Assembly: GCA_012270305.1 (NCBI GenBank)
Contig: JAAXIO010000021.1
Location: 40,970-104,969 of the forward strand
From: Candidatus Saccharimonadota bacterium
GTDB taxonomy: Bacteria > Patescibacteriota > Saccharimonadia > Saccharimonadales > Saccharimonadaceae
Direction: 5' to 3'
DNA: 64,000 bases
Both the position numbers and the translations under genes were made by a program. The first letter of the stretch is position 1. Every line of letters begins with the position of its first letter. Below, one piece after another: positions 20,763 through 51,397 of this stretch. A model generated the notes under the pieces. That model was not told the origin of the DNA, made no database searches, and saw only the letters and a program-made list of their open reading frames with translations.

Positions 20763-20787
20763 AATAAAAAGAGCCTTCGGAGGCACT
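20763..20787 (-). terminator. terminator, probably the original tRNA-Leu(GAG) terminator
   Basis: On the minus strand GCCT-CCGA-AGGC is followed by TCTTTTTATT. Upstream on the same strand lies GCACCAAA, the 3' end of a tRNA. No gene here needs this terminator. It fits the tRNA-Leu(GAG) now 30 kb away, displaced by the integrated element. Confidence 0.6.
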
Positions 20788-20794
20788 TTGTTAT

Positions 20795-20802
20795 TTTGGT
20801 GC
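20795..20802. other. left attachment site core (attL)
   Basis: TTTGGTGC matches the tRNA-Leu(GAG) 3' end at 51308-51315; the bases outside differ on both sides. The host side keeps the tRNA-type terminator, and the element side keeps the recombinase C-terminal codons. Confidence 0.65.
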
Positions 20803-20951
20803 ACCTCATCGACTCTAGATGGAACACCTTGCTCCCTAGTATATCAAAGATGTATGGGAAGCTAGTCGATTTAGGCTTTGTATATTATAACGGAGAAATC
20901 CATATTGTCGAGCCAGAACAGGAGGACAACAATGTTCAAATTAAGAAGTAA
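20799..20951 (+). other. displaced native 3' end of the serine recombinase gene
   Basis: Read in the frame carried across the 8-bp core, codons 20799-20948 encode 50 residues (VHLIDSRWNT ... DNNVQIKK) and stop at TAA 20949-20951. They contain plausible protein text (KMYGKLVDLGFVYYNGEIHI) and overlap the next gene's start by 20 nt, like a normal operon junction. In the integrated state these codons have no start of their own. Confidence 0.7.
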
Positions 20952-21405
20952 GGGCAAGCAGAGTGATCTTGTTGACTCTGCTTTATATAACCAAGACACA
21001 TTCTATAAAGAGTTTCTGCGGAATATTAGCAGGTGTAAGACGGAGCTTCTTATTGAAAGCCCGTTCATCACGAGTCGTCGTATGCAGTTACTAATGCCTA
21101 TATTTCGTAAGCTGCGGAAACGTGGTGTTAAGATCATCGTCAATACACGTTGCCCAGATGAGCACTATGGCGTACATCGAGAACAGGCAGTCGAAGCAAT
21201 TGCCGATATGCGATCTTTGGGCGTAAAGGTACTCTACACCGTCCGCCACCATCGTAAGATGTCGATTATTGATCGTACTATTATATGGGAAGGTAGTTTG
21301 AATATACTGTCTTATAGTAATAGCTGTGAGATAATGAGAAGGATAGTATCACCTGGCCTCGCCCAGCAGACCATACGATTTATAGGAGTTAAAAGATACC
21401 TATAA
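20932..21405 (+). CDS. phospholipase D-family (single HKD) nuclease-like protein
   Basis: 157 aa from ATG 20932, preceded by SD AGGAGG; an earlier in-frame start at 20878 lacks one. Residues ~20-45 give LLIESPFITSRRM and the catalytic HKD motif is HHRKMSIIDRTIIWEGSLNILSY (H-x-K-x4-D with GSxN). Single-HKD proteins act as dimers, e.g. Nuc of pKM101 and BfiI nucleases. No signal peptide. As the first gene inside the element it may process element DNA (inference). Confidence 0.8.
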   Translation: MFKLRSKGKQSDLVDSALYNQDTFYKEFLRNISRCKTELLIESPFITSRRMQLLMPIFRKLRKRGVKIIVNTRCPDEHYGVHREQAVEAIADMRSLGVKVLYTVRHHRKMSIIDRTIIWEGSLNILSYSNSCEIMRRIVSPGLAQQTIRFIGVKRYL

Positions 21406-21894: not shown

Positions 21895-22176
21895 TTATTG
21901 ACTAAGCATTGAACTTTGAGATAACAATGTGCCAAACCATGCAATGAGTATAAAAATTACAAGCAAAATCTTAAGTAGCAATGAACCCGCTCTGAACATA
22001 AACCAGATAACCTTGAAAGTCACGAGGACGAGCAATATCAGGAATAATAGCTGTCCAATAGAGCTATCACCAGTAAGGTTGTAGGTAATGATCCCAAGGA
22101 GTGCTATACCGACCACAACTAGCCAAAAAGGAGGTTTACGCTTAGCTTGAGTCGTTTGAGTTGCTTCCTTGCTCAT
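21895..22176 (-). CDS. small membrane protein, unknown
   Basis: 93 aa from ATG 22176 (MSKEATQTTQAKRKPP). A basic N-terminus is followed by 2-3 hydrophobic helices (LVVVGIALLGIITYN, LLFLILLVLVTFKVIWFMF, LLKILLVIFILIAWFG). TATAAT lies 6 nt before this ATG, so the longer frame to 22212 is unlikely. No family recognised; divergent from the T4SS operon. Confidence 0.65.
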   Translation of the reverse strand: MSKEATQTTQAKRKPPFWLVVVGIALLGIITYNLTGDSSIGQLLFLILLVLVTFKVIWFMFRAGSLLLKILLVIFILIAWFGTLLSQSSMLSQ

Positions 22177-22253
22177 ATACATATTATATACCCGTTCGAT
22201 GTTAACCCTCAAACTATCATCACGCAGTAATATTTACATTCGTAAATTAACAG

Positions 22254-22262
22254 TGATACAAT
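22254..22262 (+). promoter_or_regulatory. T4SS operon promoter (extended -10)
   Basis: TGATACAAT with TACAAT at 22257-22262, about 37 nt before the pilin ATG. SD AGGAGG lies at 22288-22293. The 14-bp inverted repeat TTTAC-ATTC-GTAAA just upstream could be an operator. Confidence 0.5.
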
Positions 22263-22299
22263 GAAAATAGGTCGATTATAAGCAACAGGAGGTGTGTTT

Positions 22300-22641
22300 A
22301 TGAGGAGACGAAAAGAAATGGGGATAGTAGCGCTCATTGTTGCGCTGGGGCTTCCAATAGTGTTCGCAAGCCCCGCGTTAGCAGCCAGTGGTGATGTCAC
22401 ACAGGTAGAGAACTTTATCCGAAACATCATCAAGGTAATCGCAGGTTTAGCCGGTCTAGTAGCGACCGGTTTTTTTGTGGCTGGGGGTTTCATGTATATC
22501 ACCAGCTCCGGTAACCCCGAACATCTTGATAAAGCAAAACGAACACTATTATGGGCAGCGATTGGACTTGGCATCACTATCGCAGCCTTTGTAATAAGCA
22601 ACATTATTACGGATATCGCATACGGCGCTTTCGGAAAGTAG
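22300..22641 (+). CDS. VirB2/TrbC-like T4SS pilin
   Basis: 113 aa from ATG 22300 (SD AGGAGG 7 nt before; the GTG at 22294 is too close to the SD). Signal peptide IVALIVALGLPIVFASPALAA cleaved near ALA-A. The two-helix pilin core is VENFIRNIIKVIAGLAGLVATGFFVAGGFMYITSS and LLWAAIGLGITIAAFVISNI. The connecting SSGNPEHLDKAKRT loop is typical of Gram-positive/CPR TrbC pilins. First gene of the T4SS operon. Confidence 0.82.
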   Translation: MRRRKEMGIVALIVALGLPIVFASPALAASGDVTQVENFIRNIIKVIAGLAGLVATGFFVAGGFMYITSSGNPEHLDKAKRTLLWAAIGLGITIAAFVISNIITDIAYGAFGK

Positions 22642-22647
22642 GTCATC

Positions 22648-23973
22648 ATGGACTTACTATCTGTAATGCACCAAGTGTCATTTTTTGCGGACGCGACCGC
22701 TGCAGGAAATGCCATGAGGAACTTCATCGGGCCGACTATCACAACATTGTGTGTGATAGCCGGACTCGTTGCAACTGGCTTCTTAGTACACGGTGGGTTT
22801 CAGATGATAACCAGTTCGGGGCAACCCGATCGGCTTGACCATGCCAAAACAACAATACGCAATGCGATACTCGGTCTAATAATAGTGCTGTCAGCTGCTT
22901 CTTTAACAGCAATCTTAACAAACACATATCAAAATAGTACGAATAAACCTGTCAAGGAAATGCCCGCTCTCACAGAAGTAAAGCCTGATGAGGGTGGCGG
23001 TGGATTGGTAGAGGTACTTATAAATGCTGTTGTGGGCTTGCTCAAAAATATAGTTGAAACAGTCGGCAAACCATTTATTGATGCCTTGCAGTACTTTACA
23101 AAAGCAACGCCACTTATGGCAGAAAACTCTAGCGTCTTTAACTTATGGCTGACAATTGTAGCCATTGCAGATGTGCTGTTTATATTAGTGGTGATATTGC
23201 TCGGTTTTCATGTCATGAGCTTCTCAGCGCTTGGTCTTGAAGAAATTGAGTTTAAACACCTGTTGCCGCAGTTAATTGTCGTATTTCTGCTTATGAACTC
23301 CTCGATCTTTGCGATTGACGCCATTATCAGTCTATCCAATGGAATGATATCGGCCGTTCAGGCTGGCTTCGCCTCATCAACCGTATGGGAATCACTGTCG
23401 AAAGTTATGGACGAATCGAAGGATATGAAGTTAGCAGCACTATTGATTTATATGGTTTTTATCATTTTGTCGGTAGTACTGCTTATTTACTACATTCTCA
23501 GGCTTGTTGTTCTTTACATAGGGGCTGTTTTGTCACCTATCGTGGCAATGTTATGGCTATTACCAAGCTTCAAGGATTTTGCCTCAAACGCTATCCGCTC
23601 GTACATAACAGTTATTTTCGTTCTTTTCGTTCATGTCGTGATCCTAATACTCGCATCTTCAATCTTTGCGGGTATGGCTACCAACGATCCGAACAAGGGA
23701 CTTGATCCGATTATGTCAATGCTGGTTGGAGTGGCAACTGTACTAGCGCTCCTAAAGACGCAGGCCGTTATTCAGCAGATGGCCTACGCTAGTGCTGGGG
23801 CACGTACTGCTCGTAAGCTTGGCGGACAATTCGTCAATGGCGTAAGTCATCTATCTACAAAGGTTCGCCAAAGTAATACTACAACGACAACGAGCAGTAA
23901 AGCCACAGGCTCAACTACAGTAGCAAAAGATAATCCAGCTCGGTCAAACTCAAACAAAGGGTCTAAGTCATGA
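22648..23973 (+). CDS. VirB2-like domain fused to VirB6/TrbL-like T4SS channel protein
   Basis: 441 aa. Residues ~22-92 duplicate the preceding pilin: CVIAGLVATGFLVHGGFQMITSSGQPDRLDHAKTTIRNAILGL versus the pilin's VIAGLAGLVATGFFVAGGFMYITSSGNPEHLDKAK. Residues ~130-400 hold six or more TMs characteristic of VirB6/TrbL (LFILVVILLGFHVM, LLIYMVFIILSVVLLIYYILRLVVLYIGAVLSPIVAMLWLLPSF). The C-terminus is polar, Ser/Thr-rich and cytoplasmic-like. It probably forms the inner-membrane pore. It overlaps the next gene by 4 nt. Confidence 0.82.
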   Translation: MDLLSVMHQVSFFADATAAGNAMRNFIGPTITTLCVIAGLVATGFLVHGGFQMITSSGQPDRLDHAKTTIRNAILGLIIVLSAASLTAILTNTYQNSTNKPVKEMPALTEVKPDEGGGGLVEVLINAVVGLLKNIVETVGKPFIDALQYFTKATPLMAENSSVFNLWLTIVAIADVLFILVVILLGFHVMSFSALGLEEIEFKHLLPQLIVVFLLMNSSIFAIDAIISLSNGMISAVQAGFASSTVWESLSKVMDESKDMKLAALLIYMVFIILSVVLLIYYILRLVVLYIGAVLSPIVAMLWLLPSFKDFASNAIRSYITVIFVLFVHVVILILASSIFAGMATNDPNKGLDPIMSMLVGVATVLALLKTQAVIQQMAYASAGARTARKLGGQFVNGVSHLSTKVRQSNTTTTTSSKATGSTTVAKDNPARSNSNKGSKS

Positions 23974-24476
23974 AAACAACCGTAGTTCCAGCACAGGTTA
24001 CGACTGTCGAAGACAAAGTAACGGGCAGCCTTAGCCTCCAGCAACTTATCATGCTTACCTCACCAATCTTTTTGGGAAGTATCGTCTATGTATTATTTCC
24101 ACCCTTCTTCAAGGCAGAACCATATAAGATTGTCGTCATCGTAACAATCTTCACCGTCTTTGCCACACTCGCAATACGCATCAAGGGAAAGTTACTTATC
24201 CAATGGATTGCCGTACTGTTTCGATACAACGCACGTCCCCGCTTCTATATCTATAACAAAAGAGATAGCTATTTACGCATCAAACATGACGAGTCACCAA
24301 CAACGAAAGTAACAAAGCAACCGCCTCAAAAAGCGAGTTCACCTATTATTACGACAACCGTACCCATATCTGACAAGGCAGTGCTTGAGCAGATTGTTAT
24401 TGATCCTCGTGCTAGATTGAGATTCCGCACGAACAAGAAAGGAGGTCTTGATGTCCATATTCAAGAAATCAAATAA
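23970..24476 (+). CDS. PrgI/VirB3-like T4SS membrane protein
   Basis: 168 aa. An N-terminal PQVxxxEDKVTGSLSLQQL-type PrgI signature (VPAQVTTVEDKVTGSLSLQQLI) is followed by two TMs (~35-52, 59-77) and a cytoplasmic domain with RPRFYIYNKRD. The family is the Gram-positive/CPR counterpart of VirB3 and sits before VirB4, as here. ATGA overlap with the gene before; SD of the next gene lies within it. Confidence 0.82.
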   Translation: MKTTVVPAQVTTVEDKVTGSLSLQQLIMLTSPIFLGSIVYVLFPPFFKAEPYKIVVIVTIFTVFATLAIRIKGKLLIQWIAVLFRYNARPRFYIYNKRDSYLRIKHDESPTTKVTKQPPQKASSPIITTTVPISDKAVLEQIVIDPRARLRFRTNKKGGLDVHIQEIK

Positions 24477-25065
24477 AAAAGCGTCCTCGCGTAGCCAGAT
24501 AGCTATCAAAGGTGTACAAGATGGCATCTTGATTCTTCCTGGCAATCGTTACCGTATGATATTACAGGTTTCATCAATCAACTTTGAGCTAAAAAGCGAA
24601 GATGAACAAGACGCACTTATTGATACCTACCAGAACTTTCTTAATTCGCTCGCTTGCCCCTTGCAGATGATCGTTCGTGTTCGTGAGATGGATATGGATA
24701 AATATATAGAGGAGTATCGCCTAAAAATTGACGGTGAGAAACAGAAAGTCTATCGTCCCCAGATAAAGAACTACAATGAGTTTGTACAGGGGGTGATTAG
24801 TAAAAACAAAATCCTTGCTCGCCATTTCTACGTCGTTGTACCCTTTAACGCCAAGGACCGCCAAAACTTCGAGATGATCAAGGAGCAGTTACTACTTAAT
24901 AGTGATATCGTCACCAAAGGACTTGCCAGACTCGGAGTACATACGCACCATCTCAGTAGTCTTGAGGTACTCGACCTATTCTATACGTTCTACAATCCAC
25001 AATCAGCTAAGCGCCAACCAATCAGTGAACAGACGATGCAGTTACTTAAGGAGTCATACCTATGA
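24451..25065 (+). CDS. TraC/VirB4 N-terminal-domain protein (split VirB4)
   Basis: 204 aa from ATG 24451 (SD AAAGGAGG). GVQDGILILPGNRYRMILQVSSINFELKSEDEQDALIDTYQNFLNSL is the TraC-like N-terminal domain normally fused to VirB4. Further helices (FNAKDRQNFEMIKEQLLLN) follow and it ends at LKESYL. There is no Walker motif. It overlaps the ATPase gene by 4 nt, so the VirB4 function is split in two translationally coupled genes. Confidence 0.8.
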   Translation: MSIFKKSNKKASSRSQIAIKGVQDGILILPGNRYRMILQVSSINFELKSEDEQDALIDTYQNFLNSLACPLQMIVRVREMDMDKYIEEYRLKIDGEKQKVYRPQIKNYNEFVQGVISKNKILARHFYVVVPFNAKDRQNFEMIKEQLLLNSDIVTKGLARLGVHTHHLSSLEVLDLFYTFYNPQSAKRQPISEQTMQLLKESYL

Positions 25066-26885
25066 AGCTGAAAGCACTCAAACCTACTAAAGCCGTGGCA
25101 AAAAAGCCTACTAAGAAGACGAAGCGTAAAAACAACAAAACATTTGCCAGTCTGCCTCCGATTAAAAAGATTAACGCATGGAAGAAACGACGCGAGGAGC
25201 GGCCTAAACAGCTCGCACTAACTTATGGCGAACAAGACCCGATGGATATCATCTCCTACTCTGGTCTTGAGGAACAGCCAAATTACGTCGAAATTGACGA
25301 TCAATTTATCCGCACGTTATTTATATCGGGCTACCCCCTCACAGCATCATCCGGTTGGCTCAATAGCCTTATTAACTTTAGCCATGATATTGATATCTCT
25401 TATCACTTTCATGAAGTTGATGCACTACAAGCACTACCAAAACTTCGTCGCAAAATTACCGAACTTGAGTCTACTAAACGTGCCATGATACGCAGCGGCA
25501 AGGTTATTGGCTCAGAAATTACCGATCCGCTTGATTCTGCCACGGAACTACGAGACAAAATCCAGCGAGGGCAAGAGAAGCTATTTCAAATGTCGATATA
25601 TATGACTATCACTGCTCCGTCACTCGCTGAACTGGAGAATGTTACTAAACTATTGGAAACAGAGCTATCTGCACGACTATTTTATGTCAAATCCTCACGC
25701 TATCAGCAAATAGAGGGCTTGCAATCGGTTCTACCACGGGGTGAAGATATACTTGATCAGAAACGTAACCTTGATAGTTCGTCAGCAGCACTTACATTTC
25801 CCCTTATGTCATCTGAACTCGTACAAGAATCCGGCATCTTATACGGTGTTAATAAATCAAACAATTCATTGGTGATACTTGATAGGTTCGCGCTGAACAA
25901 TGCAAACAGCATTATCTTTGCACAGTCTGGTAGTGGCAAAAGCTACGCTACAAAAGTGGAGATACTACGCCAGCTCATGCAAGGTACTCGCGTTATTGTG
26001 ATCGACCCTGAACGTGAGTATAAACAACTTACTGAATCGGTAAACGGTACGTACATCAAGCTCTCGGCCAAGAGTAAAGAAAAGATTAATCCGTTTGACC
26101 TCACAACAAACTCATACACACATGACAGGATTGCCGAGCATGCCCAAGATTTGACTGAAGTCATCGGTCTCATGGCTGAGGGACTGGAGCCACGCGAAAA
26201 AGCGGCGGTTGATAAAGCAATATTGCATGTTTATCGCAAGGCGAAAAAGAACACCACTCCACTCTTATCAGACCTGTACGCGGCCTTAAAAGACATGGGG
26301 CATTTGACCCTTTGTGAGCGACTAGAGAAGTACATCAGCGGTTCGCTAGCTAACGTCTTTAACGAGCAAACAAACATCAAGTTAGATAATCGTCTGGTTA
26401 TCTTCGATATCAAAGACTTGCCCGAATCACTAAGACAAATCATGATGATGATTATTTCTAACTTTGTGCAGAACCAAGTTAAGACCCATCCCGAAAAACG
26501 TATGCTTGTCATAGATGAAGGGTGGATGCTGCTTGAGCATGAGGAGAGTGCACGATTTGTCGCAGGACTGGTAAGACGTGCTCGAAAATACTATCTTGGT
26601 GTATCTATCATTTCACAGCAAGCCAATGACTTTCTGCGTAATGATTATGGTCGTGCGATTGCATCTCAAAGCAGTCTTCGTATATTGATGCGTCAAGATA
26701 CGACAACTATAAAAGGTGTCGTAAATGAGTTTAATTTGAGTGAATATGAACAGACCTTCCTACTGACCTGCGAAAGAGGAGATGCACTAATAATTGCTGA
26801 TCAAAATCATGTTGCCGTAAAGGTTGTAGCGAGTGAGAAGGAGCACCCTCTAATTACCACCAACCCTAACGAGATTTATACATGA
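25062..26885 (+). CDS. virB4: VirB4-like T4SS ATPase
   Basis: 607 aa. A basic N-terminus (KKPTKKTKRKNNK) precedes the CagE/TrbE-VirB4 domain (~55-270) and the RecA-like ATPase with Walker A SGSGKS (K293), RVIVIDPEREYKQL and Walker B KRMLVIDEGWMLLEHEESARF. The motif RKYYLGVSIISQQANDFL is the VirB4/VirD4 arginine region. It powers pilus assembly and substrate transfer at the inner membrane. 4-nt overlaps with both neighbours. Confidence 0.93.
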   Translation: MKLKALKPTKAVAKKPTKKTKRKNNKTFASLPPIKKINAWKKRREERPKQLALTYGEQDPMDIISYSGLEEQPNYVEIDDQFIRTLFISGYPLTASSGWLNSLINFSHDIDISYHFHEVDALQALPKLRRKITELESTKRAMIRSGKVIGSEITDPLDSATELRDKIQRGQEKLFQMSIYMTITAPSLAELENVTKLLETELSARLFYVKSSRYQQIEGLQSVLPRGEDILDQKRNLDSSSAALTFPLMSSELVQESGILYGVNKSNNSLVILDRFALNNANSIIFAQSGSGKSYATKVEILRQLMQGTRVIVIDPEREYKQLTESVNGTYIKLSAKSKEKINPFDLTTNSYTHDRIAEHAQDLTEVIGLMAEGLEPREKAAVDKAILHVYRKAKKNTTPLLSDLYAALKDMGHLTLCERLEKYISGSLANVFNEQTNIKLDNRLVIFDIKDLPESLRQIMMMIISNFVQNQVKTHPEKRMLVIDEGWMLLEHEESARFVAGLVRRARKYYLGVSIISQQANDFLRNDYGRAIASQSSLRILMRQDTTTIKGVVNEFNLSEYEQTFLLTCERGDALIIADQNHVAVKVVASEKEHPLITTNPNEIYT

Positions 26886-27508
26886 ACAAACTCCTCTTTG
26901 GCGTCATTGTATCGTTTAAGAAAGAGGCTTATATTGTTCTCGGCACCTTAGCGTTTATCTTATTTCTACCACTTATCGCGGTCGTAGTTATTTCAAACGC
27001 TGGTGTTGCTGCCGTATCTCAGGCACTAGTAGCAATCAATCCAGTCACGCACCTCGTAGAAATATTTGATTCAAAGGGTAATAAGATCGATGAACGCGAA
27101 CTTTCAACAGCGTGGCCAATTAAGGGTACTATCACAGACACGTTTGGGTCTTTTGGTGGTTTTAGAGTCAATCTTGGGCTTGGATCTCATACAGCAATCG
27201 ACATTGGTGCAAACGCCGGAACGCCAATCACTCCCTTTGCAAAAGGCAAGGTTGTAATGGTTGATAACCTAGGCAATACTGCTTGCGGTCTGAGTGTCAG
27301 AGTGGATCATGGAGGTAATGTTGAATCGTTATACTGCCATATGTCAAAAACAAACGCCACACTTCAGCAAGAAGTAAAGCCTGGTGACGTAATTGGCTAT
27401 GTTGGCTCAACTGGTGTATCTACTGGCAATCATGTTCATTTTCAGGTAAATGTCCATGGCATACCAGTTAACCCACGCACCTTCATGGTGGGAGAGCCTA
27501 ATGGATAA
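26882..27508 (+). CDS. membrane-anchored M23 (LytM) peptidoglycan peptidase of the T4SS
   Basis: 208 aa. TM at ~14-40, then an extracellular LytM domain in normal order: AWPIKGTITDTFGSFGG, HTAIDIGANAGTPI (HxxxD), SLYCHMSK, VGSTGVSTGNHVHFQV (HxH). All four zinc/catalytic positions are present. It probably opens peptidoglycan for the conjugation channel, the VirB1-type role. It overlaps the coupling-protein gene by 8 nt. Confidence 0.9.
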   Translation: MNKLLFGVIVSFKKEAYIVLGTLAFILFLPLIAVVVISNAGVAAVSQALVAINPVTHLVEIFDSKGNKIDERELSTAWPIKGTITDTFGSFGGFRVNLGLGSHTAIDIGANAGTPITPFAKGKVVMVDNLGNTACGLSVRVDHGGNVESLYCHMSKTNATLQQEVKPGDVIGYVGSTGVSTGNHVHFQVNVHGIPVNPRTFMVGEPNG

Positions 27509-30125
27509 TATACTCACTTTCTTGTCATCCGTAGCCGACCGGCTACCGACTATTGGCATCTGGCTACTTGCAGTGGTATGTAGCTGGCTGTTTGTAGTTG
27601 TCTGCTTAAAAATCTGGGATTTTGTCTATGCACTCAGAATGCAGCATACGTTTTTTGAGCTAATACCTCCAGCACAGGCGGCCAAAAAGGCTCGTGCCAC
27701 CCAAGAGTTCTTTGCTGTGCTACATGGTCTTTACGGCTCCAGAACACTCTCCGACAAACTATTACGTCGCCAGCCTCATATATCGCTTGAAGTAACGTCA
27801 ACCAAGCAAGGCGGTATCAGGTATATTGCAAGCGTGCCAAATGATGTTGTTGAAACCTTCCATCAAACAATCACCTCATATCTCCCTGATATGATCGTTA
27901 AGCAAACTGATGATTATTTCTCGCCACATACCTCTGGTCAAACTATTGAGTTTCGCCAGACTGGACATTTTGCATTCCCACTAAACGTACAGGAAGAGTT
28001 AGAACAGCATGACCCGATCGCTTACCTTACCGGATCAATGACTAAGCTTGAAGCTGACGAACATGTGACATTTCAAATTGTCCTCACGCCAACCCGTGTC
28101 AAAGAAGCAGAGGTTATTGCCCGAAAAATCCTGACTAATGAGGACTTGCTCAGTAGGCTTGAAGGCAAACGTATGCCAGGGATAGGGGGTGTTTTCACCC
28201 TAATTAACTCTTTTATATTTAGTATCATGGATAGTATTGGCGGTGGGTTCTCTGGCTCATCAAGCAGCTATCGTCGTGAATCAGTAGATACACAGCTCGC
28301 TCGTCATAAGCAACAGGCCGCACTTGGGCTCAAGCCAACCCGCGTACTAAGCACATTCGAACAGCAGCTTATTGAGTCCATACACCACAAGGTTAACCAA
28401 CCGATATTTTTGGCTACTGCTAGGGCATATGTCGTAAGTGCAAGCAAACGAAAGCGCCAACAACGCATCAAAGGTATCAGGGCATCACTAGCTTCCTTTA
28501 ACGTACCAAAATACCAATCGCTCCAGGCACGTTCTAGCTTTCCAAGGCAAATTATGAATAGATACCGAACCTTTGCCCTAGAGCATCGTCTACCGTCATT
28601 TTTGCCCCATAAAGCATCTTTACTTGCTACAAGTGAGCTGTCCGACTTGTATCACTTTCCATATGCGGGAACGACTAAGACTGAAAATATCGTCAAATCG
28701 TTAAGCCGTACTTTGCCAGCACCGCTTTCACTCAAACGCGATACAGATTTTGATGTCGTATTAGGCATTAACAAGTATCATGGCGAATCGACCCCCATCG
28801 GCCTTACCGAAAAAGAGCGTGAACGACACGTTTATATTATTGGCGGTACAGGTAATGGTAAGACGACTATGCTGCAATATGCACTTGTGCAAGATATAAG
28901 AAATGGGAAAGGTATTGCCGTCATCGATCCTCACGGTGACATGGCCGAAACTTTATTACGACATGTGCCATATGAGCGTGTGAAAGATGTAGTATATTTC
29001 AACCCAGACGACCTAGGATATCCTATTGGCCTTAACTTACTTGAACTAGACGATGAACTAGAGGGCGACGAATTATTGCGAGAAAAAGACCTGATTACCG
29101 AAACAGTCGTTTCTATCTTTCGTAAAATATTCTCAGAGGATGACTCGGGCGGACATCGCATTGAGTACATGCTACGCAACGCTGTGCAGACCGCACTCAC
29201 TCAGGAAAACGCTACATTGTTTACAGTGTATGACTTAATCAACGACCCTACTTATCGCAAGAAAGTCATCCAGACGCTAGAAGATGAAAACCTCAAACAC
29301 TTCTGGCGTAATGAGTTTGGTAAAGCCGGTGGTATGCAACGCGTTAAAATGGCAGCCGGTATCACCGCTAAAATAGGACGTTTTCTATTCTCTGCTAGTG
29401 CCAAGCGCATTTTAGAGCAAGAGAAGTCTACGATTGATTTTGATGACATTATCAACAATCGTAAGATACTTATTTGCAACTTCTCAAAGGGCTTACTCGG
29501 TGAAGATACATCCGAACTGTTTGGCATTATGGTACTAGCCAAGCTTCAACTCGCTTCACTTCGTCGTGCTCGTATGCAACAATCCGACAGAACGCCATAC
29601 CATCTTTATGTTGACGAGTTCCAAAACTTCGCCACCATATCATTCGTGCAAATGCTATCTGAGTCACGTAAATATAAGCTATTCCTTACAATGGCCGAAC
29701 AGTCAACCTCACAGCAAGATGATCAACGTATGGTAAATATCATCCTTGCCAATGTTGGTACCGTCATTTGCTTCAGGACGGGCAACCCCGCAGATGAGCA
29801 ATCGCTGCTCCAAATGTTTACACCTTATATTGAACAGGGCGAAATCGCCAATTTGCCAGCGTTCAACTACTATGTGCGTATCGCTGCCATACAGTCACAA
29901 GAACCACTGTCGGGCGAAACGCTGCTACTTGATGAGGATATTACTGAAAGTGATACGATTCGCAAGAGTATCGTTGATAATTCACGTAAGAACTATGCGA
30001 TAAAATATGATGCAAAGAAATCTCAACAGTCAGTTCGATCAAAAACATCTAAGCCTCAGAAAAAATCTAGGCCAAAAACCGATAAGCCCACTGCACCTTC
30101 ACGCAGAAAGCTACCTGGCGAATAA
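27501..30125 (+). CDS. virD4: VirD4/TraG-like T4SS coupling ATPase
   Basis: 874 aa from ATG 27501; the upstream extension to 27450 lies inside the M23 gene. TM at ~10-35, DUF8128-like domain (~50-380), then ATPase with Walker A GGTGNGKTTML (~450), IAVIDPHGDMAETLL, Walker B PYHLYVDEFQNFAT and the sensor LFLTMAEQSTSQQ. The TraM-recognition region follows, with a Lys/Ser/Pro tail. It couples substrate DNA or protein to the T4SS. Last gene of the T4SS operon. Confidence 0.9.
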   Translation: MDNILTFLSSVADRLPTIGIWLLAVVCSWLFVVVCLKIWDFVYALRMQHTFFELIPPAQAAKKARATQEFFAVLHGLYGSRTLSDKLLRRQPHISLEVTSTKQGGIRYIASVPNDVVETFHQTITSYLPDMIVKQTDDYFSPHTSGQTIEFRQTGHFAFPLNVQEELEQHDPIAYLTGSMTKLEADEHVTFQIVLTPTRVKEAEVIARKILTNEDLLSRLEGKRMPGIGGVFTLINSFIFSIMDSIGGGFSGSSSSYRRESVDTQLARHKQQAALGLKPTRVLSTFEQQLIESIHHKVNQPIFLATARAYVVSASKRKRQQRIKGIRASLASFNVPKYQSLQARSSFPRQIMNRYRTFALEHRLPSFLPHKASLLATSELSDLYHFPYAGTTKTENIVKSLSRTLPAPLSLKRDTDFDVVLGINKYHGESTPIGLTEKERERHVYIIGGTGNGKTTMLQYALVQDIRNGKGIAVIDPHGDMAETLLRHVPYERVKDVVYFNPDDLGYPIGLNLLELDDELEGDELLREKDLITETVVSIFRKIFSEDDSGGHRIEYMLRNAVQTALTQENATLFTVYDLINDPTYRKKVIQTLEDENLKHFWRNEFGKAGGMQRVKMAAGITAKIGRFLFSASAKRILEQEKSTIDFDDIINNRKILICNFSKGLLGEDTSELFGIMVLAKLQLASLRRARMQQSDRTPYHLYVDEFQNFATISFVQMLSESRKYKLFLTMAEQSTSQQDDQRMVNIILANVGTVICFRTGNPADEQSLLQMFTPYIEQGEIANLPAFNYYVRIAAIQSQEPLSGETLLLDEDITESDTIRKSIVDNSRKNYAIKYDAKKSQQSVRSKTSKPQKKSRPKTDKPTAPSRRKLPGE

Positions 30126-30324: not shown

Positions 30325-30975
30325 TTAATACCCCTTTGCATTCTTTAAGTCAGTGATGGACTTCACTTCTTTGGTGTAATGTTCTGTATCTGTCTTCACA
30401 AACTCCTTCATCTCCCCATACTGAAGATTGTCTCCGCCCATATTTTTGATGTGCTCCAAGGCACCTTCATGATGCTGCAAAATGAGTCGAACAAACTCTT
30501 TCTCTAGCTCGGCTTTTGACATCTCTGTCATCTTTTGTAGCTCATATGCTGCGGCCAGACCAGTAAAAGTAGGGTAGGCGTCATGTCCATCCGTCTGAGG
30601 GAAGTCAGAAAGGTTTTGATAAGTTTCACCCCACTCTTTTAGCCAATTTGCGTACTTATCGGCAGTTCTGCCGTGAGTTTCAGTGATCTCTTTTGCTAAA
30701 GCCAATACATCGCTGTCACTTCCGCCGTGTTGGACAAGATTAGCAAGCTCTGTGGCTTGTTGGTTATATACGATCATCTTGCGGGCGAAGTCGGTATCCA
30801 TGTAGCTGTGCTTCTTAGGATCGGGTGGTGGCTGCGGTTTTGGTTTATCTTCCTTTACGCTATTCTCCGACTGTGGTGGACTGGAGGCTTTGTCTTTGTT
30901 TAGAAATACCAAAGAACCTGTTATAGCGGCTGCAACCACACCAACGCCCAAGATGCCAATGCTAATCTTTTTCAC
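30325..30975 (-). CDS. DUF305 ferritin-like secreted protein
   Basis: 216 aa. N-terminal TM/signal anchor (~5-24), Pro/Lys-rich linker, then two repeats of the DUF305 helix pair: FARKMIVYNQQATELANLV and FVRLILQHHEGALEHIKNM, with WLKEW between. DUF305 proteins are exported, four-helix and His/Met-rich, and are often linked to copper or metal handling. It overlaps the upstream DsbA-like gene by 14 nt, so they form one operon. Confidence 0.8.
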   Translation of the reverse strand: MKKISIGILGVGVVAAAITGSLVFLNKDKASSPPQSENSVKEDKPKPQPPPDPKKHSYMDTDFARKMIVYNQQATELANLVQHGGSDSDVLALAKEITETHGRTADKYANWLKEWGETYQNLSDFPQTDGHDAYPTFTGLAAAYELQKMTEMSKAELEKEFVRLILQHHEGALEHIKNMGGDNLQYGEMKEFVKTDTEHYTKEVKSITDLKNAKGY

Positions 30976-31609
30976 TTTCCGTACCGCTTTCAGCTAGAGC
31001 ATCATCAATGAGCTTCGATAGTGCATCGACACTATTATCAACCTTCTCGATCCTCTTTCCATTTAAGACAAAGGTTGGTGTGCCATTGCCGCCAAGCTTT
31101 TTAACAGCATCAAGGTCGGCAGTGATAATCGCTTTCACTTCGTCGCTCGTCCTGTCTGTCTCCAGCTTCTGCATATCAAGTCCGATTTCTTTGGCATACC
31201 CATTAAAGTACGTTGATGGGTCAGACGCTACCTCCCATTGCTTTTGCCCCTCGAAAATCTTGTCGTGCATTTCCCAGAACTTGCCCTGCTTGGCTGCACC
31301 TTCGGCATAGCTTGCGGCTATACGAGCAAATTTATGAGAGCTTGAAATCGGAAAATGTCGTACCTGGAACTTTACCTTATCTTTGTACTTTTCTTTGACC
31401 TCTTTAACAGTTGGGTAGTAGGCGTAACAGGCCTCACATTGGAAGTCCACAAACTCAGTTAATGTTACTTTGCTATCGGCTTTGCCATAAATGTTGCTTG
31501 AGCCGTTACTCTTTGGCAATTTCGCTTGGTTTATTCTATTCATTGCGATTAAGCCGCCAAATATCAGAACGACAACCGCACAGAAGATTATCCAACCAGT
31601 CTTAGTCAT
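30962..31609 (-). CDS. membrane-anchored DsbA-like thiol-disulfide oxidoreductase (copy 1)
   Basis: 215 aa. N-terminal TM (~5-22), thioredoxin fold with active site CEAC (VDFQCEACYAYYPTVKEV, ~56-59), helical insertion and cis-Pro segment NGTPTFVLNG. Family members (BdbD/DsbA) oxidise cysteine pairs of exported proteins, and VKOR (34043-34780) could reoxidise it. Highly similar to the product at 39191-39838. SD AAAGGAT precedes the ATG. Confidence 0.92.
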   Translation of the reverse strand: MTKTGWIIFCAVVVLIFGGLIAMNRINQAKLPKSNGSSNIYGKADSKVTLTEFVDFQCEACYAYYPTVKEVKEKYKDKVKFQVRHFPISSSHKFARIAASYAEGAAKQGKFWEMHDKIFEGQKQWEVASDPSTYFNGYAKEIGLDMQKLETDRTSDEVKAIITADLDAVKKLGGNGTPTFVLNGKRIEKVDNSVDALSKLIDDALAESGTESEKD

Positions 31610-34042: not shown

Positions 34043-34780
34043 CTAAAACAAACTGAGCCAGTAATCAGACCAACGATAGAACAGCAACAAGAAGATGGCC
34101 GCGTATGTTATTGCAATAAGCTCGTGTTTAAAGCTGAGTAACTTATTAAGATGCTTACCTAAGTTTATGTGCTTGTTCTTGATACAGTAAGCAGTCACAA
34201 GCCATAACGAGGCAAAGGTTACGAGCCAGACAAGCATACAGTACAAACATAGCTTTCCAATCTCAAACACTCCTTGATAGAACAGCCACGCAGCAAAGCT
34301 TGCACCAAATGTTATACCGCCTAGTAATGTTCGCCACCACGCCCTTGCAAGCTTCGTTGCTCCTGCTGCAATTGTCATGGCTGCGGCAAATACGGCAGTG
34401 AAACCAAAGATACCGATGAATGAATTAGGGAATCCAAACGCACTTGCTTGGGGGCTGGCGATAATTGGTGAACAAGCAACAACAGGACTCAAGCTACAGC
34501 TTGCAATGTGTGCTGGTTCTGTAAGTATCTCAATTTTCTCAATAGACAAAATGACTGACGCGCTGATACCGATAGCGGCAAGGACGGCCAGCCATCGAGC
34601 TAAAGCAATTTCAGGTTTTGATGTACCATAACGCTGCACTATAGCCGTGAGTGCGACTAATATGGCTGCTGCGATGTAGATGTACTGTACCTTGCCACGC
34701 AACAGAAAAATGGCGGTTAAAATATAAATAACGGGTATTACCCAGAAGTATTGTTTAAGTTTTGCTTGTATGAAGTCCAC
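34043..34780 (-). CDS. VKOR-family disulfide-generating membrane enzyme
   Basis: 245 aa with GTG start. About five to six TMs. The loop cysteines CSLSPVVACSPIIASP and the active-site pair LCLYCMLVW (CxxC at the membrane face) are the VKOR hallmarks, with SPxAS/FGxPNS between (SAFGFPNSFIGIFGF). VKOR passes electrons from DsbA-like partners to a quinone. Here it sits in the same operon as DsbA, cupredoxin and a quinol oxidase, which could reoxidise the quinol. Confidence 0.88.
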   Translation of the reverse strand: MDFIQAKLKQYFWVIPVIYILTAIFLLRGKVQYIYIAAAILVALTAIVQRYGTSKPEIALARWLAVLAAIGISASVILSIEKIEILTEPAHIASCSLSPVVACSPIIASPQASAFGFPNSFIGIFGFTAVFAAAMTIAAGATKLARAWWRTLLGGITFGASFAAWLFYQGVFEIGKLCLYCMLVWLVTFASLWLVTAYCIKNKHINLGKHLNKLLSFKHELIAITYAAIFLLLFYRWSDYWLSLF

Positions 34781-34830
34781 TAGGCTACTTTCTGTTAAAT
34801 TTTATAGTTACTGACGTAAGGTTACACATG

Positions 34831-35292
34831 CTACTCGACTACCATAACACTGCCTTTCTTGGAGGTATGAGATGAACAATGATAGGTAGTCTGCCCCAGC
34901 TCGTTGAACGTAAATGAATAACTTGCCTTCTCTGCAAGAGACGGACTCAAGAGGGTGGCGGGATCAGTATCTGTCATTGACACATCGTGTGCCATGTTGC
35001 TGCCTGCATGATCTGCCATGACGTTATGCTGCGAGGTATCGAGGTTTATCCAGGTTACTTTGGTGCCTTTTTTGATCTTTATATCCGGAAGTGAATAGCC
35101 AGGGCTGTTAATATCAATCTGCACTTCTGATTGGTTGGATAAATCAACTGAGGTCTCGCTGCTCTGGCTGTCTGGCTCAGACTGTACAGGCATGGGCGCA
35201 TTGGCGGATGATTGTAAGAGAATAATTGCTCCGCCACCCATGATAAGGATTACGGTGATAACTGTAGCGAGTATGGCAGTGCTCTTTTTCAT
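34831..35292 (-). CDS. cupredoxin-domain exported protein
   Basis: 153 aa from ATG 35292 (SD AAAGGAGAA). N-terminal TM/signal (~6-27), Ser/Gln-rich linker, then a plastocyanin-like domain: SLPDIKIKKGTKVTWINLDTSQHNVM (His ligand) and TTYHCSSHTSKKGSVMVVE (Cys and His ligands). The residue expected to be the axial Met (C-x2-H-x2-4-M) is Lys/Gly here, so the copper site may be altered or non-blue. 16 nt after cyoD; likely copper delivery or electron transfer at the oxidase. Confidence 0.85.
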   Translation of the reverse strand: MKKSTAILATVITVILIMGGGAIILLQSSANAPMPVQSEPDSQSSETSVDLSNQSEVQIDINSPGYSLPDIKIKKGTKVTWINLDTSQHNVMADHAGSNMAHDVSMTDTDPATLLSPSLAEKASYSFTFNELGQTTYHCSSHTSKKGSVMVVE

Positions 35293-35308
35293 AGTTCTCC
35301 TTTCCGTA

Positions 35309-35671
35309 CTAACGGTAAATATTCTCTTTTTCCATAATTTCACGATCTATGTCTTTATTCATATCGGGCATCATATTGTAGTGCAGGTTCTTCATAATCC
35401 ACAGACTGCCAAAAACAAGAATACAAATCACGACCGCAGCAAAAGCAAAGGCCATCAGATTCCAACGTGGTCGTGATTCACTACCTAGATGCAGGAAGTA
35501 GCGCAATTGCACCCACAACTGGCAGATCGCTAGACCGGTCAGAGCAAAGACAAGCGGCCAACCCGACAGCATTTTACTACCTACCAGAATAAAAGCAGCA
35601 TTGGTGAGTAGGATTGCTAGAATCAACCCGACTACATAGGATGACGTACTGTGCGTATGTTGCTTGCTCAT
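35309..35671 (-). CDS. cyoD: cytochrome bo-type quinol oxidase subunit IV
   Basis: 120 aa with three TMs. SSYVVGLILAILLTNAAFILV, LVFALTGLAICQLWVQLRYFLHL and WNLMAFAFAAVVICILVFGSLWIMKNLHYNMM match CyoD/COX4-pro. Overlaps cyoC by 4 nt. Assists assembly of CuB into subunit I in known systems. Confidence 0.92.
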   Translation of the reverse strand: MSKQHTHSTSSYVVGLILAILLTNAAFILVGSKMLSGWPLVFALTGLAICQLWVQLRYFLHLGSESRPRWNLMAFAFAAVVICILVFGSLWIMKNLHYNMMPDMNKDIDREIMEKENIYR

Positions 35672-36252
35672 AGTGGCGACACTCCCATCAGATATACGAT
35701 CGTGAAGATAAATATCCAGATAACATCAAGAAAATGCCAGAACATACTAAACATAAGAAGACGCTTTCGATTTATGCTGATCAGACCTTTTCTGCGTATC
35801 TTAGGCATAAGGTAGGTCAGCCAGATAAGCCCTGCGCTAATGTGCAATCCATGCATGCCAACAAGCGTGAAGAATGCCGATAAGAAGCCGCTGCGCTGCC
35901 AGCCATAACCTTCGTGAATAAGTTTCGCAAATTCGTAAGCTTCAAGGCCAAGGAAGACCAGACCCAGTGCGCCAGTTAACCCAAGTAGCCAGAGAGTTTT
36001 CCTTACATTATTACTGCGGGCAGCGATGAGTGCTAATCCGCACGTAAAGCTACTAAGCAGCAATACCATCGTGAGCAGCCAGACATAGGGGAGACTGAAG
36101 ATATCAACTCCTGCTGGCCCGTCCCATACACTGTTTCTCATAACCGCAAAAACAGCAAACAAGCTGGCGAATAGTACGCAATCGGTCATCAGGTAGAGCC
36201 AGAAGCCAAATGTTGCTTTTTCGGTGTGCTCTGACTGCCGTATCACACTCAT
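35668..36252 (-). CDS. cyoC: cytochrome bo-type quinol oxidase subunit III
   Basis: 194 aa with five TMs: [69 protein letters not shown] (the conserved LGxE/H and GxHGLHxxxGL regions) and [21 protein letters not shown]. Full length. 4-nt overlaps with cyoB and cyoD. Confidence 0.95.
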
Positions 36253-38213
36253 GCCGCCCCCTCTCTTGCTTGCTCTTCTATACGGGCAACTTCAGCAGCC
36301 GGAATAACGTACTCTGTCTCCTCGTCGTTTGCACGCACCATGATACAAGCGATGATCCCTATCACTGCTAAGATCGCCAGCCACCAGATATGCCAGATGA
36401 CGGCAAATCCAAAGACAAGCGCTATACTGGCTATAACGATGCCGAGACCTGTGTTTTTTGGCATATGAATATCTTGATAATAAGCAGGGGCTTGTCTTGT
36501 ATCACCATGTTGTTTTGCCTCCCAGAAAGGATCACGCTCAGAAATAACTGGCAGCGTGGCAAAATTATAGACTGGTGCCGGTGATGGAACCGACCACTCC
36601 AGTGTGCGTCCGTCCCATGGATCACCCGTGGTGTCACGAAGTTTTTTGCGTTGTCGGATACTAACGATGAGCTGTAAAATCTGGAATGCTACGCCAACCA
36701 TGATGAGTGCCGCACCGGCAGCTGCGACCATAAAGAGCCATTGCCAGCCAAGTGAAGCATCATAACTATCCATTCGACGGGCAGCCCCCATAAGTCCAAG
36801 AACGTAGAGCGGCATAAATGCCAGCAGGTAACCAATTATCCAGCACCAGAAAGCAGCCTTGCCAAGCCGCTCGTGCAGCTTGAAGCCAAATATCTTTGGA
36901 AACCAGTAGGTCAGTCCCGCGAAATACCCAAAGACCACTCCACCAATAATCATGTTATGGAAATGTGCCACAACAAACAGGGTGTTGTGTGTCTGGAAAT
37001 TGACACCAGGTATCGATAAGAGAACACCTGTCATGCCGCCAATCGTAAAGGTCAATACGAACGCAATGAACCACAGCATCGGAACCGTTAGTCGTACACG
37101 GCCACGATACATCGTGAATAGCCAGTTGAAGATTTTAACACCTGTAGGAATAGCGATAATCATGGTCATAATGCCAAAGAACGCATTGACATTCGCACCT
37201 GCTCCCATCGTAAAGAAGTGGTGGAGCCAGACCGTAAAGGATAGCAGGCTGATCGCCCCAAGCGCCCAAACCATTGAGGTATAACCAAATAGTTTCTTGC
37301 GCGAAAACGTGGCTACTAGCTCGGAGAATATACCGAAGGCAGGCAGAATAAGTATGTACACCTCCGGATGACCCCACGCCCAAATGAGATTAACATACAT
37401 CATCGGATTACCACCGAAATCAGACGTGAAGAAGTGCATGCCGAGCGTGCGATCTAACGACAGTAATAGCAGTGTGGCTGTTAGGATCGGAAACGCAAAT
37501 GCGACCAGTAGCATACTGCCTAATACGCTGTGTACGAAGATTGGCATTTTCATCAAGCTCATACCTTTTGCACGCAGCTTTAATATCGTAGCAGTGAAGT
37601 TGATACCTGAGAGCAGACTACCCATACCGGCTATCTGGAGACTCCATATCCAATAATCAACCCCAACCCCCGGACTGTATTCAAGCCCCGAGAGTGGCGG
37701 GTATGCCAGCCACCCGGCAGCCGAAAACTCTCCGATTACCAAAGAAGCATTTATTAGTACCGCTCCAGCCACAAAGAGCCAGAAACTGACGGAGTTGAGA
37801 AATGGAAAGGCAACATCCCGAGCACCAATTTGTAACGGTAATATGATGTTGATAAGACCGAACATCAGCCCCATCGCCACGAAGAAAATCATAATCGTAC
37901 CGTGAGCAGAAAACACTTGCTGGAACATTTCAGCACCGAGTACACCATCTGCACCCGCCCCGGTAACCTGTTGTAAGCGCATCATGAGTGCATCGGCTCC
38001 ACCGCGTAGCAGCATAATTCCGGCTACGAGCAGGTACATGACTCCGATTCTTTTTGGATCAAGCGAAGTAATCCAGTTTTTCCAAAGCCATTTCCATTTC
38101 TTAAAATAGGTAAGTGCAGCTACGATGAGTAATCCGCCCCCTACCATACCGGCAGCCGCTCCGAGCGTTATAAGGTCGCTTGGTAGCGCATCCCAGCTCA
38201 GTCGTCCCAACAT
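36249..38213 (-). CDS. cyoB: cytochrome bo-type quinol oxidase subunit I
   Basis: 654 aa, full length. Heme/copper ligands are in [11 protein letters not shown] (low-spin heme His), [17 protein letters not shown] (CuB His and cross-linked Tyr), [10 protein letters not shown] (CuB His pair) and [17 protein letters not shown] (high- and low-spin heme His). N-terminal extension and C-terminal helices as in CyoB rather than cytochrome c oxidases. It reduces O2 with quinol electrons and pumps protons. No heme O synthase gene is in the window. Confidence 0.97.
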
Positions 38214-39127: not shown

Positions 39128-39190
39128 ATGTACTTGTACCTTGTTTTTGTTGCTGATTCACGCCCGTATTATCCTCTCCCTTTGTCGGGA

Positions 39191-39838: not shown

Positions 39839-39884
39839 GATTTCCTTCTGTATTGTTAAGTAGAACTTGGTCTAAGTTCTACTC

Positions 39885-40226: not shown

Positions 40227-40234
40227 ATACCAAT

Positions 40235-40300
40235 ATTATAACCCATCACCCTCATTATGTAACAATTAGCGTTTTAGAACGAACCTAGCCGAGTTATAAT
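40235..40300. promoter_or_regulatory. divergent promoters of the oxidase operon and the D,D-carboxypeptidase gene
   Basis: Minus-strand TATAAT (40240-40235) drives the oxidase operon and plus-strand TATAAT (40295-40300) drives the carboxypeptidase gene. Start codons follow after 8 and 9 nt, so both are near-leaderless. Confidence 0.65.
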
Positions 40301-40309
40301 AGAAAGTCA

Positions 40310-41317: not shown

Positions 41318-41374
41318 GTTACTTCGCCTCAGTTCAACCTTTGTCTGAAAAAGTATAGTTGAGGGCATTGCACT

Positions 41375-41394
41375 ATATCAGTACATGTTGATAT
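41375..41394 (+). promoter_or_regulatory. probable ArsR-family operator
   Basis: ATATCA-GTACATGT-TGATAT, an inverted repeat of 6-bp arms around a partly symmetric core. It overlaps the -35 region of TATAAA (41409-41414), upstream of the HXXEE-ArsR-ATPase operon. SmtB/CadC-type operators have this AT-rich dyad form. Confidence 0.5.
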
Positions 41395-48548: not shown

Positions 48549-49370
48549 ATGAGTAAAGGCGATGACACGCCTGACAAAGCCAGGCGGCCACTCAATACGA
48601 ATCAGCTTGATACGCTTAGGTTGATTTATCGCTTTCGCTTTGTAACGACTGAGTTAATAGCTCATCGTAAAAATAAAAAGCGCGATGCCGTGACTAATGC
48701 TCACATGCGGGTCTTATACGAACAAGGCTATATAGGGCGTCACTACGATTCAAGCTACAAGCTACAAGGTAAGCATGCGGCCTATTATTTATTGCCAAAA
48801 GGACTAGCTGCACTTAAAGAAAAAGATGACTCAATTACAAGTACTAGTAAGACAATTTACAATGATCGTAAAGCCTCAGATCGCTTTATAGAACATAGCT
48901 TAGCTGTATTCTCAGTGGCTTGCACATTTCAGCGTTTATACGATGGCACAAAGCAATTTTTTGCAAAGACCGAACTAGCCACATTTGACTATTTCCCCCA
49001 ACCAATGCCTGACGGCTACTTGTCTATTAAACAGAAAAATAAACGATACCATTTCTTTGTAGACATTTACACTGAATCTACTCCAATGTTTGTGCATATA
49101 CGTACACTTAAACGATATATCACCTACGACGAGTCTGGAGAGTGGGATGTAACTGAGAGTGATTTTCCTAGCATTATGGTTATTTGCGACACCAAGAGCC
49201 TAAAAAACCGGCTCATGACACGTATTCAGAGCATATTTGAAGAAGAAGCCCCTCACTTAGTAGTATTAGCAACTACTGTAGATGAGCTGCTTAATAGTAA
49301 TGATCGTGATGATCGAATTTGGTCTCCTATAAACTCTGAGGATTTTGTTCCAAGAAAACTTCTAAAATAA
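48549..49370 (+). CDS. replication-relaxation family winged-helix protein
   Basis: 273 aa, SD AAGGAGGG. N-terminal winged helix LNTNQLDTLRLIYRFRFVTTELIAHR, RVLYEQGYIGRHYD and YYLLPKGLAAL match Replic_Relax proteins. The C-terminal part (~110-270, DRFIEHSLAVFSVACTF, FADIYTES-like FFVDIYTEST) resembles their nuclease-like domain. Family members are linked to plasmid replication or mobilisation and may be the closest thing to a mobilisation protein here. Confidence 0.8.
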   Translation: MSKGDDTPDKARRPLNTNQLDTLRLIYRFRFVTTELIAHRKNKKRDAVTNAHMRVLYEQGYIGRHYDSSYKLQGKHAAYYLLPKGLAALKEKDDSITSTSKTIYNDRKASDRFIEHSLAVFSVACTFQRLYDGTKQFFAKTELATFDYFPQPMPDGYLSIKQKNKRYHFFVDIYTESTPMFVHIRTLKRYITYDESGEWDVTESDFPSIMVICDTKSLKNRLMTRIQSIFEEEAPHLVVLATTVDELLNSNDRDDRIWSPINSEDFVPRKLLK

Positions 49371-49636: not shown

Positions 49637-51350
49637 CTTACCTCCAAAGCTCCGTACACTTCTCGCGGTACGAGTCTCAACACTCGGCCAGGGTATCGAT
49701 GGTGACTCGCCAGAGGCACAAATAGAACAAGGCGAGCTCTATGCACCACGGCACAATATGGAGATTGTCATGATACTCCAGTATCTTGAGTCCGCATCGA
49801 AAGAGCAACAGCCAATGCAGGAGGTTATTAACTACTGTAAAAAGCACAAAGGCGAAATAGATGTTGTGCTCATCAAATCTATTGACCGCTTTACTCGTGC
49901 TGGTTCGACTGTTTACGATCAACTCAAGGAGCAGCTTGAGCCGCTTGGTGTTATGCTCGTTGACATGTACGGGGTAATCGGTGCCCAGAAAGTAAATACC
50001 CTAGAGCACCTCGGTCAAGAGTACCGATGGAGCGTTTATTCTCCAACCCGCAAAACGGAACTTCTGGAGGCTGAACGCGCTAAAGATGAAGTACGCGACA
50101 TCTTGAGCCGTATGATTGGCTCAGAGATACGGTATACGCAGATTGGATATTGGTCGCGTGGCGCTCGATACGGCTACAAAACGAAAAAGATTGAGACCAC
50201 AAACGGCAAACGTACCATACTTACGTCAGATGGGGACAAGGCGAAGATTATCCGTATGATGTATGAGGAACGTGCAGCAGCCGTCCTTAGCGATGATGAA
50301 ATCGCTAAGAAAATGAATGATATGGGCTTTCGTACTCCTATAAAGGTTGTACGAGACAAGAAAGACCGCACGAAGATAGTAAGTCGTACTGGCAACAAGC
50401 TCATGACGGGTAAACTCCTACGCACCTATATTAAGCAGACGATCTATGCTGGCGTGAATACCGAGAAATGGACAGGAGACAAGCCTGTTAAGTGTAAGTT
50501 TGATGGTCTCGTCTCCCCCGATCTGTTTAACCAAGCAAATCGCGGCAAAGTTGTCATTCGTGATAATCCTGATGACCCCGATCATCCTATTGTCGAAGAA
50601 GCACCAAAACTAGAAAAGTTTGCCAAAAAGAATGTCTATAATGCCGATTACCCGTATCGTAAGGTAGTTATGTGCCCTCATTGCCGTAAACCGCTGCTAG
50701 GTAGTGCCTCGCGTGGCAAATTGGGTAAATACTACCCTGCCTATCACTGTAGCAACCACGGCCATTATTTCCGCGTCCGCAAGGAAGAGTTTGACAAAGT
50801 GGTTGAAGAGTTCGTACAAAGCGTTATCGTGCGTCCTGAGCGCATAGACGAGCTTGTAGGGGCTGTTACGGCTGTTTATGAGCAACGACAAGGCCAGAAG
50901 GTACAGGCCGAGGAATTAGTAGATAAACGACGCTTAGAGCTAGAGGCTGAAATCAAAGTCATTATCGACAAGATGAAGCTGATTAGCTCCGAGACTGCAA
51001 TTAAATACATGGAGGAGGACTTAGTAAAACTAGAGCAAGAAATAAAGAGCCTAGACACAAAAAGGGAGGAAGAAGCAGCCAAAGAAACCGTCGATTTGCC
51101 GACCATGTTGACATATGTCAAATACTTTATGGAACACCTCAAAGATTTGCTTATCGACCACTGTAATCCAGTCAAAAGAGCACAGTATTTTGGAGTAATT
51201 TTCGATGAGGTGGCAACTTTCCAAGAAATAAAAGATGGAACCCCAGAAATAGAAAAAATCCCAGGGGTGAACGAGCTATTTAAGCTCATCAACTCTGAGA
51301 AAGTCTCTTTGGTGCGGCGAAGAGGACTTGAACCTCCACGATCGCAATGA
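49623..51350 (+). CDS. large serine recombinase (integrase) of the element
   Basis: 575 aa, SD AGGAGG. Resolvase domain with catalytic S19 (LLAVRVSTLGQG), conserved IDRFTRAGS, recombinase domain (~150-300), zinc ribbon CPHC (C351/C354) ... YHCSNHGHYF and a coiled coil (~420-500). The last 13 codons (from GTG 51312) come from the tRNA-Leu gene (VRRRGLEPPRSQ). In the circular form the frame would continue into 20799-20951 for a 50-residue native tail. Catalyses attP x attB integration and excision. Confidence 0.93.
   Translation: MPPNSLPPKLRTLLAVRVSTLGQGIDGDSPEAQIEQGELYAPRHNMEIVMILQYLESASKEQQPMQEVINYCKKHKGEIDVVLIKSIDRFTRAGSTVYDQLKEQLEPLGVMLVDMYGVIGAQKVNTLEHLGQEYRWSVYSPTRKTELLEAERAKDEVRDILSRMIGSEIRYTQIGYWSRGARYGYKTKKIETTNGKRTILTSDGDKAKIIRMMYEERAAAVLSDDEIAKKMNDMGFRTPIKVVRDKKDRTKIVSRTGNKLMTGKLLRTYIKQTIYAGVNTEKWTGDKPVKCKFDGLVSPDLFNQANRGKVVIRDNPDDPDHPIVEEAPKLEKFAKKNVYNADYPYRKVVMCPHCRKPLLGSASRGKLGKYYPAYHCSNHGHYFRVRKEEFDKVVEEFVQSVIVRPERIDELVGAVTAVYEQRQGQKVQAEELVDKRRLELEAEIKVIIDKMKLISSETAIKYMEEDLVKLEQEIKSLDTKREEEAAKETVDLPTMLTYVKYFMEHLKDLLIDHCNPVKRAQYFGVIFDEVATFQEIKDGTPEIEKIPGVNELFKLINSEKVSLVRRRGLEPPRSQ
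51308..51315. other. right attachment site core (attR) in tRNA-Leu 3' end
   Basis: TTTGGTGC, identical to 20795-20802. It covers the CCA end and last acceptor base of tRNA-Leu(GAG), so integration leaves the tRNA intact. Confidence 0.65.
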
Positions 51351-51397
51351 TCACTAGCCCCTCAAGCTAGCGCGTCTACCAATTCCGCCACCGCCGC
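51310..51397 (-). tRNA. tRNA-Leu (GAG), integration target
   Basis: 88 nt with encoded CCA. Acceptor GCGGCGG, anticodon loop TTGAGGG gives GAG, long variable arm, T loop TTCAAGT. The recombinase C-terminus is encoded on the opposite strand over its 3' half. No terminator follows; the element has separated it from one. Confidence 0.95.

Follow-up and report, generated by a model that had tools for sequence, protein, structure and literature searches.

The window (the whole 64,000-nucleotide stretch of DNA that was analysed, part of a 912-kb draft genome) contains a 30.5-kb ICE-like element at positions 20795-51315, inserted in the gene for tRNA-Leu(GAG) (Table 1). Close relatives of its recombinase come from Saccharibacteria, and the host, judged from sequence, is Saccharibacteria-like. 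The element has the feature set of an ICE: a T4SS; a coupling protein; a site-specific recombinase; and defined att sites. Among the proteins scanned, a Replic_Relax protein adjoining the recombinase is the sole candidate for a relaxase. Cargo genes (34043-44298, 44379-45659, and 30325-31609) include the haem-copper oxidase subunits COX1, COX2, and COX3, along with DsbA-like and VKOR proteins, a P-type ATPase plus ArsR regulator, and an Nramp transporter. A related element (element A of genome G270) carries cytochrome bd-like genes, judged by ORF appearance only.

Table 1. Features of the element and its attachment sites, in window coordinates.
Feature	Position	Strand	Remarks
attL core TTTGGTGC	20795..20802		identical to 51308-51315; crossover confirmed by empty site in G396
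Native LSR C-terminal tail VHLIDSRWNT...NNVQIKK, stranded	20803..20951	+	fused 613-aa ORF; tails in 24 elements
Direct repeat C, TGGAACACC	20820..20828	+	+23; encodes W-N-T of tail; attP right half-site motif
PLDc_2-domain gene	20932..21405	+	Pfam PF13091; overlaps tail stop by 20 nt
T4SS genes: T4SS_pilin/TrbL, PrgI, VirB4-like, M23 peptidase, VirD4-like	22648..30125	+	
Replic_Relax (replication-relaxation) protein, adjoins LSR	48549..49370	+	PF13814, 5e-15
Large serine recombinase (LSR), integrated form, 575 aa	49623..51350	+	Pfam Resolvase PF00239
Direct repeat B, TGGAACACC	51130..51138	+	-180; in M-E-H-L codons
Direct repeat A, TGGAACCCC	51236..51244	+	-74; in G-T-P codons
attR core TTTGGTGC	51308..51315		second copy of 8-bp core
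tRNA-Leu(GAG), target	51310..51397	-	antisense strand encodes replacement tail

The recombinase has the resolvase and recombinase domains of a large serine recombinase (LSR). PF00239 scores above its cut-off, and Recombinase (PF07508) reaches 20.4 bits, just under the cut-off of 21.1; the catalytic domain matches TP901-1 integrase in sequence, and the fold matches full-length serine integrase complexes (9y66/9dxf, E 1e-16 to 1e-17). An earlier, sequence-only reading of this DNA proposed that the gene crosses the 8-bp core into the tRNA and so acquires a 13-residue end. It does: LVRRRGLEPPRSQ, the 13 residues from the core onward, is encoded antisense within tRNA-Leu(GAG). The same reading described 50 open codons in this frame at the left end of the element, and these too are present, running from the core to a TAA (20949-20951) that lies 20 nt into the next gene, the PLDc_2 ORF (ATG at 20932). 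Joining attR to attL at the core converts the 575-aa LSR into a 613-aa reading frame with a 50-residue tail.

The crossover point was confirmed by means of an empty site. Joining both host flanks of the element at the core predicts the empty attB, and this sequence is present in a same-genus genome (G396), identical at 233/233 nt and with no gap. No LSR homologue was found in that genome. By this comparison, an exact empty site in a genome without the LSR, the crossover at the core is real.

Related elements form a large family in tiny parasitic bacteria; as the sequences read, their integrase genes hold the recombination site within the 3' end. When GTDB genomes (all those compared being assemblies, mostly MAGs) were scanned, 80 LSR loci came up in other Patescibacteria, belonging to Saccharibacteria, several Microgenomates, WWE3, and Parcubacteria. 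At 66 of these the LSR reads antisense into a tRNA gene, with 10 isotypes represented: Glu (29 loci), Leu (11), Lys (8), Gln (6), Gly (4), and others (8). Among the remaining 14, one has kept its tail, and 13 are masked at the tRNA, cut by a contig end, or unclear as to target. Some loci are unusual. Two LSR genes (L118 and L151) end beside TCGAAAAA(A)TTCGAAC with no tRNA, possibly another type of target; the frame of another (L167, BroJett019) runs about 160 codons beyond the matched region, maybe into a host protein gene; and two contigs that carry a Patescibacteria LSR (L165 and L169) are labelled Micrarchaeota and Chitinophagales and are probably misbinned.

A search of the genomes with a profile of the tail located stranded tails in many of them, each sharing strand and contig with the recombinase and lying upstream of it. 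Reconstruction of both att sites succeeded for 20 elements; their cores, 6-13 bp long, fall at the tRNA 3' end, and 20/20 have a homologous in-frame tail at the far end. Four further elements agree, including one from Levybacteria in tRNA-Val, for a total of 24/24 elements with both ends located, from about 15 lineages. Homologues thus do have the tail, each at its own element's left end, and the left-end frame is conserved in related elements. This agreement puts the tail frame far beyond chance. The window rests on a single assembly, which might have left room for a chance reading frame or a misassembly; with 24/24 elements in accord and the empty site matching at 100%, that explanation is refuted and can be put aside. 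Since the recombination site falls within the end of the integrase gene, every integration would swap a conserved tail of 40-50 residues for arbitrary tRNA-derived sequence.

Do the stranded tails matter as protein? Pooled pN/pS for the tails is 0.32 in the native frame, versus 0.79 and 1.67 in the other two, and dN/dS between related elements is 0.06-0.49, mostly 0.06-0.26. By these ratios purifying selection acts on the stranded tails, in the native frame only. Modelled alone, the tail is predicted with fair confidence to form a helix and a β-hairpin, and is as predicted a conserved mini-domain. The full-length LSR model has low confidence over the tail, and says little about it because the tail rows were unaligned in its input alignment. 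Both length and sequence of the tail are variable, and one lineage (G207, G323, and G129) has a shortened version. Together, the 24/24 elements, the exact empty site, and the frame-limited selection strongly support the proposed exchange of the C-terminus upon integration, with the native tail left stranded.

The swap might nevertheless be a neutral by-product, attP having settled at the gene end for compactness and the two enzyme forms being alike. The replacement ends vary freely, from 3 to 55 residues, and the catalytic, recombinase, zinc, and coiled-coil domains of serine integrases all lie upstream of the tail. Moreover, integrated LSR frames are mostly open, which indicates that the LSR body is still selected. 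But the native tail is under purifying selection at the protein level and is recognizable across classes, and must therefore do something in the circle; we consider neutrality rather unlikely.

The att sites have the anatomy that large serine recombinases would leave: a short shared core, and a half-site motif whose position differs by 5 bp between attP and attB. The antisense T-loop motif of attB, GAAC (TAAC in tRNA-Gly), starts at +20 from the core TGG in every site that could be read (18/20). In attP, the equivalent motif begins at +25 in 20/20 elements, exactly 5 bp beyond the position of the T-loop motif in attB. The shift applies to the right half-site alone; the left half of attP showed no inverted counterpart of the +25 motif. 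The serine integrase of Listeria A118 follows the same rule: relative to attB, its zinc-domain motif in attP lies 5 bp farther away from the centre (PMC3783163). In the present family, however, it is the tRNA T-loop that supplies the attB motif, and the gene holds two further direct copies upstream.

These copies are elements of a repeat whose consensus is TGGAACACC, present as three 9-nt direct copies around attP in three codon phases. The mean match is 7.6 of 9 at -74 and 7.2 of 9 at -180, against a background of 3.3 (sd 0.5), and the copies covary between lineages (0 of 20,000 shuffles for -74; p 0.002 for -180). The -74 and -180 copies are spaced by 106 nt in 48 pairings, which by itself is uninformative at the DNA level because it reflects ungapped protein. 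Rather, the DNA-level evidence, from sequence comparison, is the word shared in different phases together with the covariation. That the repeats are arm-type binding sites is a guess.

Downstream of the tail, an ORF overlaps the tail stop in 19/20 elements and resembles the PLD ORF in size and N-terminus; the PLD domain itself was shown in the window element, and the ORFs of the others are recognized by size, position, and N-terminal sequence only. The earlier claim that circularization places recombinase and PLD gene in one operon agrees with this conserved overlap. A terminator-like hairpin on the plus strand (22449-22471) and minus-strand ORFs (21895-22742) intervene, so that the circle operon would comprise the LSR, PLD, and one small ORF, without the T4SS genes. 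The idea that circularization switches on the T4SS genes is accordingly not supported.

The same overlap with the PLD start, and the TTG, GTG, or ATG codons offered by the core, would suit a stranded tail that is translated at attL in the integrated state as a separate small protein, a leader for PLD. Such a role is very unlikely. No conserved ribosome-binding site or promoter was seen upstream of the tail, where each element abuts a different host flank.

A further explanation puts the switch on transcription and not on the enzyme: the tRNA gene would lose its terminator upon integration, leaving its promoter aimed antisense into the LSR gene and silencing it. LSR gene and tRNA are convergent in 66/66 cases. 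In the window, the left host flank has a hairpin plus T run on the tRNA (minus) strand at 20769-20789, now 30 kb from the tRNA, which from its sequence apparently is the terminator of tRNA-Leu(GAG); several other attL flanks are similar. This explanation leaves the coding selection on the tail unaccounted for, and as the whole story it is possible but not probable. It is, however, compatible with the enzyme-based model that we prefer.

That model, which we consider very probable, is as follows. An ICE-like element carries attP within the 3' end of its LSR gene, giving a full-length enzyme from the circle and a tail-less enzyme once integrated, with the tail and PLD gene stranded. In the circle, the LSR gene would encode a 613-aa enzyme that ends in the conserved mini-domain, its stop codon overlapping the PLD start. 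Crossover at the 3' CCA end of the tRNA gene fuses the gene body to antisense tRNA sequence, and the gene then encodes a tail-less enzyme with an arbitrary extension of 3-55 residues. The native tail and PLD gene stay behind at the opposite end, cut off from the recombinase promoter. Presumably, the full-length form is the integrating enzyme. The tail-less form may be altered or weaker, as the analogy with phage Mx8 suggests for an altered enzyme, and the integrated state would thereby be stabilized; excision or a second integration would restore a tail. PLD would be expressed mainly from the circle, and convergent tRNA transcription without a terminator may also silence the LSR gene. The anatomy, the empty site, the family-wide conservation, and the coding selection on the tail can be read from the genomes; the tail swap as a built-in switch of activity is plausible, by analogy.

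Free circular forms were sought in viral contigs and plasmids, and none was found. Two intact or partly intact LSR-tail frames were seen, both at hybrid junctions of tandem elements. In G155 (L065), the fragment of a second recombinase reads in frame into the tail of the first element. In G270 (L092/L198-L200), contig-end overlaps link an intact hybrid recombinase-tail gene to a neighbour element, whose recombinase ends in tRNA-Glu. As assembled, both genomes carry a pair of related elements arrayed in tandem at a single tRNA. The intact tail at L148 (G270:C6) was considered as a free circle, and rejected on the evidence of the contig-end overlaps and the second recombinase at tRNA-Glu; it most likely is the internal junction of the tandem pair. 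From the geometry of entry at the tRNA, a resident recombinase would gain the tail of the newcomer.

A broader proposal is tentative, and we hold it with somewhat less than even confidence. The LSR family may read the universal tRNA T-loop as attB, with arm-type repeats in its own gene; the C-terminal swap would reset enzyme activity and partner-gene expression at each integration; and tandem newcomers would re-tail the resident.

Across this whole family of Patescibacteria elements, integration-dependent rewriting of the integrase is the rule and not one phage's curiosity. Many tailed enzymes in the family come with a natural tRNA-tailed counterpart, which makes them useful for studying direction control in serine integrases, and the family yields serine recombinases that may recognize tRNA genes generally, which have been rare so far. 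Moreover, a Patescibacteria T4SS here belongs to an element that is movable and has defined limits, a point relevant to the question of whether such systems are conjugative. From the absence of relaxases in most cases, a 2025 survey concluded that they have probably been recruited to other functions (PMC12102498).

A literature search, with most subscription journals outside its reach, found no paper describing these elements. The principle of the C-terminus swap is already known, from Mx8 and Mx9 and from the serine integrases of rumA ICEs. Phage Mx8 (and Mx9) carries attP inside int, and integration of Mx8 replaces a 112-residue C-terminus by 13 residues (PMC6070905, PMC4701971); the integrated form of the integrase is altered and less active (PMC4701971). 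By sequence, the Patescibacteria LSR genes share both traits, attP within the integrase gene and a C-terminus exchanged upon integration. However, the Mx8 enzyme is a tyrosine integrase of a phage, whereas here a serine recombinase serves ICE-like elements at many tRNA isotypes in several Patescibacteria lineages. In streptococcal rumA ICEs the serine integrase gene contains attR, and the C-terminus that it encodes is consequently a different one once the element is excised (PMC4701971). Those elements have a single protein-gene target; here there are tRNA genes, a conserved tail domain, the PLD overlap, and direct repeats.

SSV-type integrases belong to the tyrosine recombinases, and their gene is divided in two. 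In archaea, the SSV-type integrase gene extends over attP (PMC4383910), and the present genes likewise span attP, but the Patescibacteria LSR loses the tail alone and keeps its catalytic part intact. Serine recombinases at tRNA genes are called rare in one source, which cites phiRSM1 and Mycobacterium AICEs (PMC3218068), and also in another (PMC4383910). Those LSRs resemble the present family in integrating at tRNA genes; the available text describes no C-terminus swap for them (PMC3218068), whereas here one family covers 10 isotypes. New in the Patescibacteria elements are the family-wide conserved swapped tail in tRNA-targeting LSRs and the range of tRNA targets, along with the PLD overlap, the tandem tail exchange, and the direct repeats.
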